From Candidatus Methanoperedens sp. (lineage in GTDB: Archaea > Halobacteriota > Methanosarcinia > Methanosarcinales > Methanoperedenaceae): 64,000 nucleotides of DNA. The DNA lies in NCBI GenBank assembly GCA_027460525.1, contig JAPZAS010000004.1:49055-113054 (forward strand), written 5' to 3'. Of this stretch, positions 19,119 through 51,916 are shown one piece after another. The notes below the pieces were generated by a model. The model was not told the DNA's origin and made no database searches. It saw nothing but the letters and a program-made list of their open reading frames with translations. Position numbers and translations under genes: made by a program. The number at the start of each line of letters is the position of its first letter. The first letter of the stretch is position 1.

Positions 19119-19263
19119 TCTTTAATCGCTATAACATTCAAAATTTAACCGCTGATTGACGCTCTGAAAAACATTTAACCACATATCGGCGCTATGAAAT
19201 GGTTTTGATACGCTCATGGGCGCAGATAAATGCTGCTGATAGAGGTCGTTTCGTATATTTTTT

Positions 19264-19293
19264 AACCGCAGATGAACGCAGATAAACGCAGAT
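19264..19293 (+). repeat. Dispersed CGCAGAT repeat, copy 1 (left border of the cobamide-cluster island)
   Basis: AACCGCAGATGAACGCAGAT followed by AAACGCAGAT: three near-identical units on a 10-base period. It lies 46 bases downstream of the GxxExxY stop codon. The rest of 19119-19338 is AT-rich with fragments such as GGGCGCAGATAAATGC (19218-19233) that look like decayed copies. It is inverted relative to the copies at 19784 and 23831, so the outermost copies of the island face each other. Confidence 0.85.
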
Positions 19294-19338
19294 ACGTATC
19301 GAACAATTCTGCGCATGTCAGCGCGTATATGTGGTTTT

Positions 19339-19734
19339 TTATATACCATTCACTATCCTCTTGATTTCAACTCTTGGCTTACTGAAATTGATAAGCAAGC
19401 ACAGTTTTAGACCAGTAATTCTAAGATAATTCAGGCACTGTGCGAGATGAATTTCATCGAATTCCTTAACGGTTTTTAGTTCAACTAAGATTTCATCCTC
19501 AACCAGAATATCCGAGATGTAATCGCCGACTAATTCATTTTTATAATACACTTTTAACGGTGCCTGCGGGAATGTTTTTAGCCCTCTTAGTTTAAGCTCG
19601 ACATTAAGAGCATTTTCATAAACTTTTTCAAGAAAGCCAGCGCCAAGAATATTGCTTACTTCAAACGCCGCGCCAATAATCTTCTCTGATAATTCATTCA
19701 ATCTGTGTTCATCTATATTTATCTGTGATTCCAT
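19339..19734 (-). CDS. GxxExxY family protein (PD-(D/E)XK nuclease-like)
   Basis: 131 residues with the defining G33-F-L-E36-K-V-Y39 motif (ILGAGFLEKVYENAL) and a PD-(D/E)XK-like core, D75-x9-E85-L-K87 (SDILVEDEILVELKTV). The biochemical role of the family is not established; the fold suggests nucleic acid cleavage or binding. The first 14 codons (MESQINIDEHRLNE) are a diverged copy of the dispersed CGCAGAT repeat read in the frame Q-I-N-A-D-E-R-R. The gene stands alone on the minus strand inside the island that separates cobZ from cbiB, with repeat copies on both sides. Confidence 0.8.
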   Translation of the reverse strand: MESQINIDEHRLNELSEKIIGAAFEVSNILGAGFLEKVYENALNVELKLRGLKTFPQAPLKVYYKNELVGDYISDILVEDEILVELKTVKEFDEIHLAQCLNYLRITGLKLCLLINFSKPRVEIKRIVNGI

Positions 19735-19744
19735 ATCTTCAAAC

Positions 19745-19941
19745 CATTATAAATCTCTAACAACCTTTTTCTATACTCACCGCTTCATTAAATCTGCGTT
19801 CATCGGCGTCATGCCCGCCGTTATGCATAGACACGTATCTCCACGTATGGAGAAGCCATACGTGTAGGCGACGCCAACTGGCGCAACGGTTGACGTGGAT
19901 GCGCCCTCCCGAGGCGCGACTCGGGGCGTTTATCTGCGGTT
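19745..19941 (+). repeat. Long dispersed repeat, copy 2, split by a 121-base hairpin-rich insertion
   Basis: Positions 19745-19804 match 23791-23851 over about 60 bases (shared blocks CTAACAACCTT and TTCATTAAATCTGCGTTCAT). The match then breaks and resumes at 19926-19941 (GCGTTTATCTGCGGTT), which continues the same repeat. The intervening 19805-19925 is GC-rich and full of inverted repeats: CACGTATGG/CCATACGTG with a five-base loop (19842-19864), GCGCC/GGCGC, and CCCGAG/CTCGGG. Reading: a small structured element inserted into, or replaced the middle of, an older repeat copy. The minus-strand frame through it (ending DADERRFNEAV-like) is not taken as a gene. Confidence 0.75.
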
Positions 19942-20008: not shown

Positions 20009-23000
20009 TCAAAACTTATTCAAGAACTCCTCAATAATCTTCTTATCATTCTCATCCAGTCCGTACAGCTTATACACAAGCTCGTTAATCTCTTCCTCAA
20101 GCGCCGCAATCCCCTGTGCTTCCTGCACATCTTTCTGCCAATGGGCCAGCGCCTCTTTCGCAAGCGCCTCGGCGCGCGGGATTAGTATCGTTATTTTCTC
20201 GCCTTTGCTTACTTTCCTGCCTGTGAGCGCGGCTTTAACATACTCAGCTTTTGCCTCGCTGTCCACAAGCATCGGCGCAACGCCTTTTATTTTTATTACA
20301 AATTCTTTATCCAGGGACTTCTCGATATCAACAGAAAGCTCCTTATGATTTGCATTGAAAAAAATCTCTTGCGCATCGAATTCCTCCCCACGGGCGCGGT
20401 ATTCCTTGATGTACTCTTCTGGGAAGCGCGCGGCGCGCTGGTCGGATTTGACTTTTGCGAGTATATTTTCCACGCGCGAAGTTATCTGGGAGACGAGGGT
20501 TTCTTCGGGTGTTTTGGGGATATAAATTGGAAGTTGATTTAAATAACCCGTCATATAGCGATACCATTTACCAGATGCGAAAGGACTTATTTGTTTTAGG
20601 TAAAATTCGAGTGGTCTTGAGTTAAGTAATGCTAAAATGTAAAGGTAATGATTTCTCTCTTTATTTTTTAAGATGATTCCGTAACAATCATGATCTAAAT
20701 AATAATCTTGGTCATCAAAAGCGAAATTATTTTCTGTCGATAGATTGGGAGTAATTATTTTATATTGCTCGAAAATCTTTTTTGGCTTCGGATGAACTAA
20801 TGCAAACCAGACCCCAAACATTTCTTCAGGGGTTTCTCCATAATATTTTCTTTCCTTTAAATCATCGATATGTAATTTTAGATACTCGTATGCATGAGGG
20901 AATTTTGTTTTGAATTGGTCTTCTGCAAGTGGATTTCCTTCATCATTATGTGGATAAATTACATAGCGGTTATCCCAATAAATCTTCCAACGCCTTATAT
21001 CTCTACCTTTTGGAACTTTCTTTAGACTATCTTTTTCCAAATTCAATTTGGAATAATTATCAGAATCTATAAAATAAATTGGATTTGCACCTGTTATAAA
21101 TCCTTCGTAAATATTTTCTTTGAGAGTATCTAAGTTATTTTCACAAATCATCTCCATTTTTTCCATAACTTTTAAAATAGGGACTGGAGCTAATTTCCAG
21201 CTTTTTAACCCCAAGACAGACTGCTCCATATCAAAAATCGAATAGAATTCGTTTCGATACTTCGATGTGCTAATGTTAGTTTTTACATCGGCTAAAACAT
21301 TCTCCTTTGGCATCCGTATAATTACACATTTGATTATATTTTTATCAGGCTTTTGCTTGTTAAGTATTATTATACATGGGTAATTTGTCGCATCTTCAAA
21401 TACCCCTGAATCACCAAAGTCGATAATTTGTTTAATAATGCAACTATCAATTATTAAACCTCTCAATTTTTTCCCATAATCTCTATTAAAGAAAAGATTT
21501 GGATTTATAAATCCCAATCTTCCCTGATTATTTAACCACTGAATTCCCCTTTCAACAAATGGAATGTATAAATCAAATTTTCCTATAACGGTAGTGTAAT
21601 TATTTCTTAGATAGTCATTTACTTCTTTTGAGAGCATTTGCACTCTCACATAAGGTGGGTTCCCCACCACAAAATCATACTCCACATGGTTCTTCAACAA
21701 TCCAGCAAGTATAATATCCTCTATTGACTTCACCAGCCTGCCATCGCCATATTCGCTCCTCAGCTTCTTTATCGTATCCAGAAAGTAGCGCCCATAGGGC
21801 AAAAAGAAACCCGAAAGCCTCGACCAGTCCTTGTTTTGCAGATATATTTTGAGGTTGCTCTCAAGCTTCTCCTGCGTTATCGCCTCTTGCTCGGCGCGCG
21901 CCGCTTCCTTCACTGTATCGAAGAGCGCCTGGAGCGCGGCGAAATATTCAGGGATGTTCAGCAGTCCTGTTTTCTCGGATATTGCTTCGCCCCTGAAAGG
22001 CATTATTATCTCAGCATCCACGAACTTATTGCCGGCGCGAACAGGAAGCGTGATTTTAATCGAAATACTGCGCCCGCCCTCGAACATGGAAAGCGTCATT
22101 GCTTCGCTCTTGCTTTCGTCTATCAGCGAGTCAGTCCTGAAAATTGGCAGGCGCTTGAGCACGAAACTTTTGTTCTTCTCGATAGCCTTTCTGTAATAAG
22201 GAATAAGAACAAGCATGAATTGAATCTGCGCCATTATTGTTGCAAAAGGATGGATGTCAAAACCTACGATATGATATTCGTTGCAGAGCTTGGAAAGAAC
22301 AAAATCCCATCCCTTTTCCTCTGCAAGAGGCTTGGCTTCATCAAGATACTTCTTCAAGGCATCCACAAGGAACGTACCTGAACCGCAGGCAGGGTCAAGA
22401 AGCCTTTTGTCAACGATTCCACGCCCCCTGTAATCAACAGCATCAACAATATATTCCACTACTTCTTTGGGTGTATAGAACTCACCCAGTGCCTTCCTCG
22501 TCTCACGATCAAAATATTTCTGGTATAGATCGCCAAGCGGGTCGCCGATGATTTTTGAAAAATCGAATTTATACAAAGCGTATAGCACCTTAGCCAGCGC
22601 CCTGCTGAAATCCATCAGCGCCACTTCATAACTTCTCTGGTCTGTGTAGATATTGTTCTGCAGGCCTTCAAAATCATCAGTCCACCAGTAAAACAAATCC
22701 TCTTCGAAAACAGATTCTACAAGGTCGCGCCGCATTTTCCGGATAAGGCGCATCACAAGCACGCCCCACACCACAAGGAACGTGCCGCCCCTGCGCTCGC
22801 TGCCTTTGATTTCACTTTCTATGAATTCCGAAAAGTCGATTCCCTGGAAATTATAGTCTTCGCACGCCTTGGCAAGGATGAGACGGGTGAACAAAGCGTA
22901 TGTGGTCTCTAGGCAGAACATGAATTTATACAAATCTTCTTCGCCAGTTGTAAGCCCCGCGCCTTTCAGGAGCTTCTTCCAGCTTTCAGGCACTTTATCA

Positions 23001-23704
23001 GGCTTCTTTGCGTAGGATTTGCGCCAGAAATCGTACGCGCTGGTAAGGAATTTTGAGTGAGAATACTCATAGTCAAATAGCTTGATGGTCTTTTTAAGGA
23101 GCTCGCCAAAGATGGAGTCCTCTTCAAGCTTGAAGTTCTCAAAAAAATGCTCACGCGCGGCATCCGAAGTCAAATAGATTCTTGATTCCGGCGCCGAAAA
23201 TTTATTCAAATAATTTAATATATCTTTTACTTTGGTAAGTTCATAATCCGGCTTTTTTAACAATTTAATAATAAGTTCGCAGTCCTTATCCGAAATCTCG
23301 CTGAGATTTACACGAAGCTCAAGCTTGTTGTTTTCTCCGATTCTCCTGTAAAGAATCAATTCATATCCATTTATTAATGCGCCAAAATCAGCGCGCAAAG
23401 GCTTTACATACCTGTCCCAGAGCTGATCGAAATGGTCTTTTAAGTCAACAGTATCAGAAGGTTTCTTGAATTCAACTACAAAGATAACATTCCCATAGTC
23501 ATCTATGCAAGTAATATCACTTTTTTTTCCCTTAATAAACAGCTCAAGTCGTATATCCTTCCCGATTGCTCTATATCCCAAATTTTCAAGAATATCACTT
23601 TTAGTAAAAAGTGTCCTTAGCTCTTCCTCAGGCATCTCAGGATTTTTCCTTGATTTCTCATAGAGATTCTGAAAATCAAGTTTAATTTTCTGGATGTCAG
23701 GCAT
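20009..23704 (-). CDS. Type IIG restriction enzyme/N6-adenine methyltransferase (single polypeptide)
   Basis: 1231 residues combining nuclease, methylase and specificity parts. The N-terminal PD-(D/E)XK nuclease has D63, E78 and K80 in DITCIDDYGNVIFVVEFKKP. A helical connector comes next. The gamma-class N6-adenine methylase has motif I DPACGSGTF at residues 437-445 and motif IV NPPY at 682-685 (VVGNPPYVRVQ). A C-terminal Eco57I/TaqI-like target-recognition region follows, and the protein ends in a coiled-coil tail. All catalytic residues I can check are intact, so it is probably active in defence. It is alone, with no separate S or R gene. The central specificity region (20.5-21.6 kb) is much more AT-rich than the ends, a mosaic sign. 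It sits between two direct copies of the long repeat. Confidence 0.9.
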   Translation of the reverse strand: MPDIQKIKLDFQNLYEKSRKNPEMPEEELRTLFTKSDILENLGYRAIGKDIRLELFIKGKKSDITCIDDYGNVIFVVEFKKPSDTVDLKDHFDQLWDRYVKPLRADFGALINGYELILYRRIGENNKLELRVNLSEISDKDCELIIKLLKKPDYELTKVKDILNYLNKFSAPESRIYLTSDAAREHFFENFKLEEDSIFGELLKKTIKLFDYEYSHSKFLTSAYDFWRKSYAKKPDKVPESWKKLLKGAGLTTGEEDLYKFMFCLETTYALFTRLILAKACEDYNFQGIDFSEFIESEIKGSERRGGTFLVVWGVLVMRLIRKMRRDLVESVFEEDLFYWWTDDFEGLQNNIYTDQRSYEVALMDFSRALAKVLYALYKFDFSKIIGDPLGDLYQKYFDRETRKALGEFYTPKEVVEYIVDAVDYRGRGIVDKRLLDPACGSGTFLVDALKKYLDEAKPLAEEKGWDFVLSKLCNEYHIVGFDIHPFATIMAQIQFMLVLIPYYRKAIEKNKSFVLKRLPIFRTDSLIDESKSEAMTLSMFEGGRSISIKITLPVRAGNKFVDAEIIMPFRGEAISEKTGLLNIPEYFAALQALFDTVKEAARAEQEAITQEKLESNLKIYLQNKDWSRLSGFFLPYGRYFLDTIKKLRSEYGDGRLVKSIEDIILAGLLKNHVEYDFVVGNPPYVRVQMLSKEVNDYLRNNYTTVIGKFDLYIPFVERGIQWLNNQGRLGFINPNLFFNRDYGKKLRGLIIDSCIIKQIIDFGDSGVFEDATNYPCIIILNKQKPDKNIIKCVIIRMPKENVLADVKTNISTSKYRNEFYSIFDMEQSVLGLKSWKLAPVPILKVMEKMEMICENNLDTLKENIYEGFITGANPIYFIDSDNYSKLNLEKDSLKKVPKGRDIRRWKIYWDNRYVIYPHNDEGNPLAEDQFKTKFPHAYEYLKLHIDDLKERKYYGETPEEMFGVWFALVHPKPKKIFEQYKIITPNLSTENNFAFDDQDYYLDHDCYGIILKNKERNHYLYILALLNSRPLEFYLKQISPFASGKWYRYMTGYLNQLPIYIPKTPEETLVSQITSRVENILAKVKSDQRAARFPEEYIKEYRARGEEFDAQEIFFNANHKELSVDIEKSLDKEFVIKIKGVAPMLVDSEAKAEYVKAALTGRKVSKGEKITILIPRAEALAKEALAHWQKDVQEAQGIAALEEEINELVYKLYGLDENDKKIIEEFLNKF

Positions 23705-23790: not shown

Positions 23791-23870
23791 GTTTCATAAA
23801 TCCCTAACAACCTTACTCATACTTATCCGATTCATTAAATCTGCGTTCATCTGCGTTTATCTGCGGTTAA
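23791..23870 (+). repeat. Long dispersed repeat, copy 3, merging into the end of cbiB
   Basis: This is the intact version of the repeat at 19745: a CTAACAACCTTACTCATAC-like left part and the core TTCATTAAATCTGCGTTCAT, CTGCGTTTATCTGCGGTT at 23831-23868. Read on the minus strand it is CCGCAGATAAACGCAGAT..., and its TTAA supplies the TAA stop of cbiB (23867-23869). It is in the same orientation as copy 2 across the restriction-methylation gene, and opposite to copy 1. Confidence 0.85.
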
Positions 23871-41921: not shown

Positions 41922-41955
41922 AAAACCGCAGATGAACGCAGATGAACGCAGATAC
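41922..41955 (+). repeat. Dispersed CGCAGAT repeat, copy 4, at the start of the midA-like gene
   Basis: AACCGCAGATGAACGCAGAT followed by GAACGCAGATAC at 41924-41955, same orientation as copy 1. The ATG of the downstream methyltransferase (41942) lies inside the second unit, so the codons for M-N-A-D-T come from the repeat. Confidence 0.85.
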
Positions 41956-51885: not shown

Positions 51886-51916
51886 AATCTGCGTTCATCT
51901 GCGTTTATCTGCGGTT
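51886..51916 (+). repeat. Dispersed CGCAGAT repeat, copy 5, between the two nucleotidyltransferase genes
   Basis: AATCTGCGTTCATCTGCGTT followed by TATCTGCGGTT, identical in its core to 23839-23868 and in the same orientation. It lies in the gap between the two MNT genes inside the gyrB-gyrA interval. Confidence 0.85.

Follow-up and report, generated by a model that had tools for sequence, protein, structure and literature searches.

The GxxExxY gene and the short repeat that overlaps its first codons are best explained as parts of one short mobile element: with a probability of roughly 0.7, the nuclease that this element is predicted to encode cuts its ends, and so spreads the element itself and, in trans, copies that carry no gene. 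An unexplained protein family and a set of short interspersed repeats thereby receive one likely explanation, namely a small mobile element with its derivatives, and the question of what moves such repeats narrows to one 131-residue protein and a 30-bp site. The system may also reveal how elements that have no known transposase move, the intervening sequences of 23S rRNA being a parallel case.

The window, that is, the whole stretch of 64,000 nucleotides analysed here, belongs to an archaeal genome of 2.44 Mb, and Candidatus Methanoperedens is among the named sources of the nearest homologues of its GxxExxY protein. The open reading frame (ORF; 19339..19734, minus strand) encodes 131 amino acids, matches PF13366 (E 1.4e-40; score 138.7, cut-off 22) and TIGR04256 (141 bits, cut-off 35), and is modelled by AlphaFold2 with a pLDDT of 93 as a predicted PD-(D/E)XK nuclease. 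Its 5′ end is at the same time a terminal repeat (19700..19730, minus strand), sharing 25 of its 31 bases with the dispersed repeat AACCGCAGATAAACGCAGATGAACGCAGATT. The best match in 60 Markov-randomised windows was 21, and none reached 23. This rules out a coincidence between the N-terminus of the gene and the repeat, and the claim of an earlier note on this DNA, that the first codons are a diverged copy of the dispersed repeat, is borne out. Just past the stop codon, and absent from that note, an inverted terminal copy is found (19264..19294, plus strand; 28 of 31 bases). To judge by its sequence, the purine-rich unit ahead of the start codon may double as a ribosome-binding region.

Further copies delimit a larger inserted region, the edges of which were placed by comparison with relatives where the site is empty. 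The left edge consists of degenerate outer copies identified by reading the sequence (TAACCGCTGATTGACGC..., TAACCACATATCGGCGC... and GCGCAGATAAATGC...; 19146..19240, plus strand), and the right edge of an outer copy that matches the repeat at 31 of 31 bases (23838..23868, minus strand). Stand-alone copies had been said to continue in the same frame, Q-I-N-A-D-E-R-R-F-N-E, before a stop. This is correct for the right-edge copy, which translates as P-Q-I-N-A-D-E-R-R-F-N-E-S-D-K-Y-E-stop, and incorrect for the copy assigned to 19745, a position slightly off: the inner part of this upstream copy lies at about 19757..19811 (minus strand) and translates as D-A-D-E-R-R-F-N-E-A-V-S-I-E-K-G-C-stop. It is without Q-I-N because a separate dispersed element of about 150 bp (19790..19941, minus strand) splits it, the remaining part of the copy being located at 19926-19941. 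Three near-full copies of this second element, 91-98% identical, are found at other places in the genome (e.g. G000:C16:2088-2239) and further ones in relatives; the N-terminal codons of one GxxExxY homologue (P0092) resemble it. Between the repeat copies lies a type IIG-like restriction-modification (R-M) ORF, possibly cargo (20009..23704, minus strand; Eco57I and TaqI_C domains, type IIG models). A 61-bp stretch at 23796-23856, overlapped by the right-edge copy, recurs in direct orientation at 19749-19809 with 80% identity, and the R-M ORF sits between these direct copies as if captured between GxxExxY element ends. The window holds in addition two solitary copies, at 41924..41954 (plus strand; 29 of 31) and 51886..51916 (minus strand; 31 of 31).

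In nine relatives compared base by base (G393, G400, G402, G417, G360, G418, G397, G414 and G395), the site is empty: the two genes that border the inserted region, which we take to be the cobalamin genes cobZ and cbiB, are there no more than about 40 bp apart. In another relative, G409, the GxxExxY element is present at this locus, but nothing matches the R-M ORF over its length; a stretch of about 130 bp over the repeat and the 3′ end of the R-M gene, a possible remnant, aligns at 65%, and G409 may have lost this ORF rather than never gained it. Both genes are carried by G416 and G419. At the window locus, the R-M gene could thus have arrived with the element, been added later or been lost in G409.

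Comparison of genomes shows that a GxxExxY unit with inverted iterated ends has inserted, amplified and given rise to deletion derivatives. In one genome (G019), two elements that are 98.8% identical over 641 bp stand at unrelated sites, and another pair is 96% identical over 752 bp. A full-length element of G266 (L174) occupies a site that is empty in G212, G163, G315 and G426. A multi-copy derivative, recognised by reading, joins the first ~36 codons of the gene to a C-terminal motif between the same ends; it is present in four of six genomes of one genus. From a larger number, 20 copies were retrieved, not all of them complete; they have 19 different flanks, two copies being apparently orthologous. 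In the derivative of G150 and G244, residues 1-26 are fused directly to residues 101-116 (numbering of the ~116-residue domain). One derivative site is filled in G184, G219 and G204, the copy in G204 having a further internal deletion, and is cleanly empty in G273. As a separate observation, a hairpin of about 113 bp in G424 (L277, G424:C23:88500-89700) adjoins the right flank of the G266 element site, the left flank being on another contig.

The layout seen in the window recurs in other lineages with other sequences, among them (CGCAGAGAG)x3, (CGCAAAGGG) and (CACAGAGGG); with the motif used, the 29 loci surveyed for this layout include some that show no repeat. Among the nearest homologues of the window protein (best 120 of 4660), 113 of 120 have a repeat-like motif N-terminal to the conserved domain, typically like EPQINADERRLN, the motif being one fitted to those same 120 homologues. 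Upstream of the start, the frame in which the repeat is read differs by lineage; the residues directly preceding the domain are, for example, AENAESAEM or TPQRARRTQRM.

Inverted ends were scored in a set made of the best 80 of 553 confirmed GxxExxY loci, drawn from named genomes of many phyla and found with a motif tailored to a single branch of the family; 78 loci entered the scoring, two being dropped for too short a flank. The upstream-versus-downstream inverted-repeat score has a median of 22 within loci; cross-locus pairs have a median of 11, and random windows drawn from the locus itself one of 10. The score exceeds the 99th percentile of the control in 56 of 78 loci (22 do not exceed the control) and that of the cross pairs, which share a common family motif, in 22 of 78, while 51 of 78 loci score higher than 95% or more of the cross pairs to which they belong. 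Of the 78 loci, 57 have an inward-pointing two-unit motif in the upstream flank, 60 have one in the downstream flank and 49 have both; the counts for outward-pointing motifs are 15 and 18. Ends anchored on ACC are found on both sides in 45 of 80 loci, spaced 421-655 bp apart (median 449). All nine further Planctomycetota loci judged by eye have inverted ends (10 fetched, one with a short flank). In a second scoring, only 4/29 and 0/9 loci were above the same-locus control, because this control was contaminated by the arrays themselves (99th percentile 39); the count of inverted ends relies on the 78-locus scoring, where loci are longer, and on the by-eye reading of the nine Planctomycetota alignments.

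For the protein itself, structure prediction gives a PD-(D/E)XK nuclease fold. The active-site motif of this fold is D ... E-x-K, and D75, E85 and K87 are invariant in a 50-sequence alignment and in its 45-row subset. The dN/dS ratio, at most 0.30 in 27 pairs, denotes strong purifying selection, and the family spans named genomes of many phyla in both bacteria and archaea. In Pfam, the ORF matches PF13366 only, with neither a DDE transposase nor PF01797. A sequence search for a structurally known relative gave at best an unrelated enzyme (E 0.23), PADLOC returned 0 families at E 0.001 with no anti-phage defence model applying, and PHROGs gave no match.

The proposed element is a segment of about 450 bp that encodes one protein and is bounded by inverted copies of a triple unit of 8-10 bases. 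GxxExxY would recognise the repeated unit, and the predicted nuclease would cut DNA at the iterated units and so drive movement; in the version we favour, host repair would complete the insertion or copying. This process would also account for the solitary 30-bp copies, either as minimal derivatives or as its relics, and they would have moved in trans. An earlier suggestion that nuclease and repeat make up one mobile system is strongly supported as regards the mobile unit (by termini, empty sites, derivatives and the association in copy number); an action of the protein on the repeat is what we infer. No fixed target-site duplication was found in excess over cross pairs in 45 loci (offsets 0-7, lengths 2-12), nor by eye among the fetched copies of the multi-copy derivative, and a DDE-like mechanism is therefore not supported; the edges in the window would permit a 5-bp duplication, AAATT.

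The same null result favours a homing-type process, which overlaps the preferred explanation in the role it gives to the nuclease: GxxExxY would cut repeats that already exist and recombination would copy the gene in, making the repeats targets first and products second. A predicted nuclease fold fits such a process, as does the clustering of copies beside copies, seen in the window and at three loci (L067, L069 and L080) where arrays of repeat units lie beside GxxExxY genes, with a regular spacing that is close to 157 bp in some and roughly 170-200 bp in others. At the empty window locus, G397 and G414 retain stretches of 6-7 bases (CTGCGG, TGCGGTT) that are possible remnants of a repeat edge, but no repeat unit is seen there in the other seven of the nine relatives, nor where relatives lack the g73 derivative or the L174 element. 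Homing of this type is unlikely, if the strongest of the competing readings. In a separate comparison, matches of at least 22/26 to a gene's own repeat within 20 kb were enriched (9/39 versus 73/2379 cross pairs), with a median rank of only 0.51.

The association between gene and repeat across genomes bears on whether GxxExxY is the mover. A census with a generic three-unit pattern, which, unlike the two-unit motif used for flanks, is not noisy (its reversed control is near zero), covered 392 genomes of the window's own phylum. At least five repeats were found in 38 of 50 genomes with the gene above cut-off and in 22 of 342 gene-negative ones (odds ratio 46, p 8e-27). In the Planctomycetota (246 genomes, gene called at E 0.001; above cut-off in 111 of 246), the corresponding figures are 90/112 and 18/134 (odds ratio 26, p 1e-27). 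Kinship was controlled by family strata in the own-phylum set, where at least five repeats occur in 21/23 gene-positive and 11/28 gene-negative genomes of family f9 and in 0/4 and 0/10 of family f7; the Planctomycetota statistics ignore relatedness. Among 50 named gene-positive genomes, picked from the 80-locus set for spread of phyla, 49 have repeats (median 37.5; 3839 in total versus 64 for the control). Repeat number thus tracks the gene. The refuting case named in the earlier note, many repeats with no gene, exists as a minority (the 22/342 and 18/134 above), with repeat-rich genomes such as G538 (227 matches), G526 (92) and G297 (51) in which no gene was detected, some gene-negative repeat-rich genomes being incomplete assemblies. 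Conversely, 12/50 gene-positive genomes of the own phylum and 22/112 of the Planctomycetota have fewer than five repeats. These exceptions weaken a one-to-one link between gene and repeat, not the association.

A real mobile unit could also be moved by an unrelated host enzyme, for instance a Y1 (RAYT-type) transposase, with GxxExxY as a passenger that has another job. The absence of a recognised strand-transfer domain from the protein (by Pfam and structure prediction) speaks for this; to our knowledge, PD-(D/E)XK nucleases do not by themselves carry out strand transfer. The repeats are moreover linked to other mobile genes, namely Y1_Tnp (PF01797; odds ratio 7.4) and 23S-IVP (11.1). Against it, the odds ratios for GxxExxY within the Y1 and IVP strata are still 12-29, its coefficient in a joint model is the largest (2.6 versus 1.3 and 1.5 for Y1_Tnp and 23S-IVP), and an element of 421-655 bp holds little beyond the GxxExxY ORF. 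We regard a passenger role as distinctly unlikely, slightly more so than homing.

In the source genome, 66 matches to CGCAGATRAACGCAGAT with at most two mismatches (0 for the reversed pattern) were merged by hand into 43 sites, a few of the weakest of which may be due to chance. The genome contains a single GxxExxY gene match, and no gene fragments were detected at the repeat sites, so that the case for movement in trans in this genome rests on other lineages. At one of its loci (L032, G000:C24:84300-87200), three close repeat sites combine a CGCAGAT repeat with an inverted CGCAAAG-type one, like hairpins with mixed ends. The earlier note had proposed that the intergenic repeats are relics of the 5′ ends of GxxExxY genes. 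This proved too narrow: the repeat forms both inverted ends of the element, and its N-terminal reading is a by-product. In its strict form, in which solitary copies would be only the decayed 5′ ends of lost genes and would never have moved on their own, the idea is improbable. Two copies near the gene do run on into gene-like codons (F-N-E), but most copies in this genome end at the repeat and have unrelated flanks, several of them adjoining a second dispersed element, and hairpin copies recur in one genus. Adjacent copies in the flanks of the 80 loci also tell against decay, facing inward in 26 cases, outward in 5 and the same way in 11, as found with a noisy motif (49 clusters for the reversed control, with the element unmasked, versus 106 in masked flanks). 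Least probable by far is that the repeats are independent small mobile sequences: many are solitary and some genomes contain them while lacking the gene, but the inverted ends on both sides of the gene and the narrow range of element lengths argue otherwise, and derivatives that fuse both gene ends between the termini, together with empty sites for whole elements, strongly contradict it and rule out a chance gathering of repeats at the gene.

Several known systems resemble the proposed element in part. In REP/RAYT systems, one gene per genome can accompany many short dispersed palindromic repeats, and the RAYT enzyme is a tyrosine HUH nuclease. GxxExxY likewise combines few genes with many short dispersed repeats, whereas PF01797 is absent from its protein and is less strongly associated with the repeats than GxxExxY is. 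MITEs are gene-deleted derivatives with inverted ends; gene-deleted GxxExxY copies similarly keep the ends of the autonomous element, but the parent protein has no DDE transposase match and the fixed target duplication was not found. Terminal inverted repeats are shared with DDE insertion sequences, the DDE transposase not being encoded here. From the Cas4, lambda-exonuclease and Hjc branch of PD-(D/E)XK enzymes, GxxExxY differs in being small, in standing alone and in lying within a mobile unit. More tentatively, with somewhat less than even odds, the GxxExxY elements could constitute a new transposon superfamily of bacteria and archaea, whose single enzyme, a PD-(D/E)XK nuclease of ~130 residues, would recognise their inverted triple iterons; the CACAGAG/CGCAGAT/CGCAAAG-type repeats of many phyla would be its non-autonomous progeny, and together with free-standing IVP genes (same layout, other sequences) it would form a larger class of tiny mobile elements. 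We know of no such single-PD-(D/E)XK transposition enzyme described so far. No report linking GxxExxY with repeats was found in the open PMC literature, where some queries were narrow, and the mention of GxxExxY in one paper is unrelated to mobility (PMC8934634).

A close parallel in layout is that of the 23S rRNA intervening sequences and their proteins (IVS/IVP; S23p, PF05635), which, like the GxxExxY element, are short and have inverted ends and a single small ORF. The IVS of Coxiella is described as a selfish sequence of 428 nt that ends in inverted repeats and contains a single small ORF, for which a role in mobility has long been proposed (PMC4990558). The IVS/IVP element differs in encoding a four-helix bundle and in lying in rRNA; GxxExxY belongs to a different family, and the copy in the window lies between protein genes. 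The repeat units at IVP loci are also unrelated, since the two-unit CRCRRAK motif occurs beside 0/30 of these genes, upstream or downstream. Inverted tandem short units nevertheless stand on both sides of most free-standing IVP genes: in a set (L293-L322) where L300, L313 and L315 are cut by contig ends and gene coordinates may be misplaced, 26 of 30 loci score above 17 (the GxxExxY control level), with a self median of 23.5 versus 9 for cross pairs, which suggests that these genes are mobile units too.
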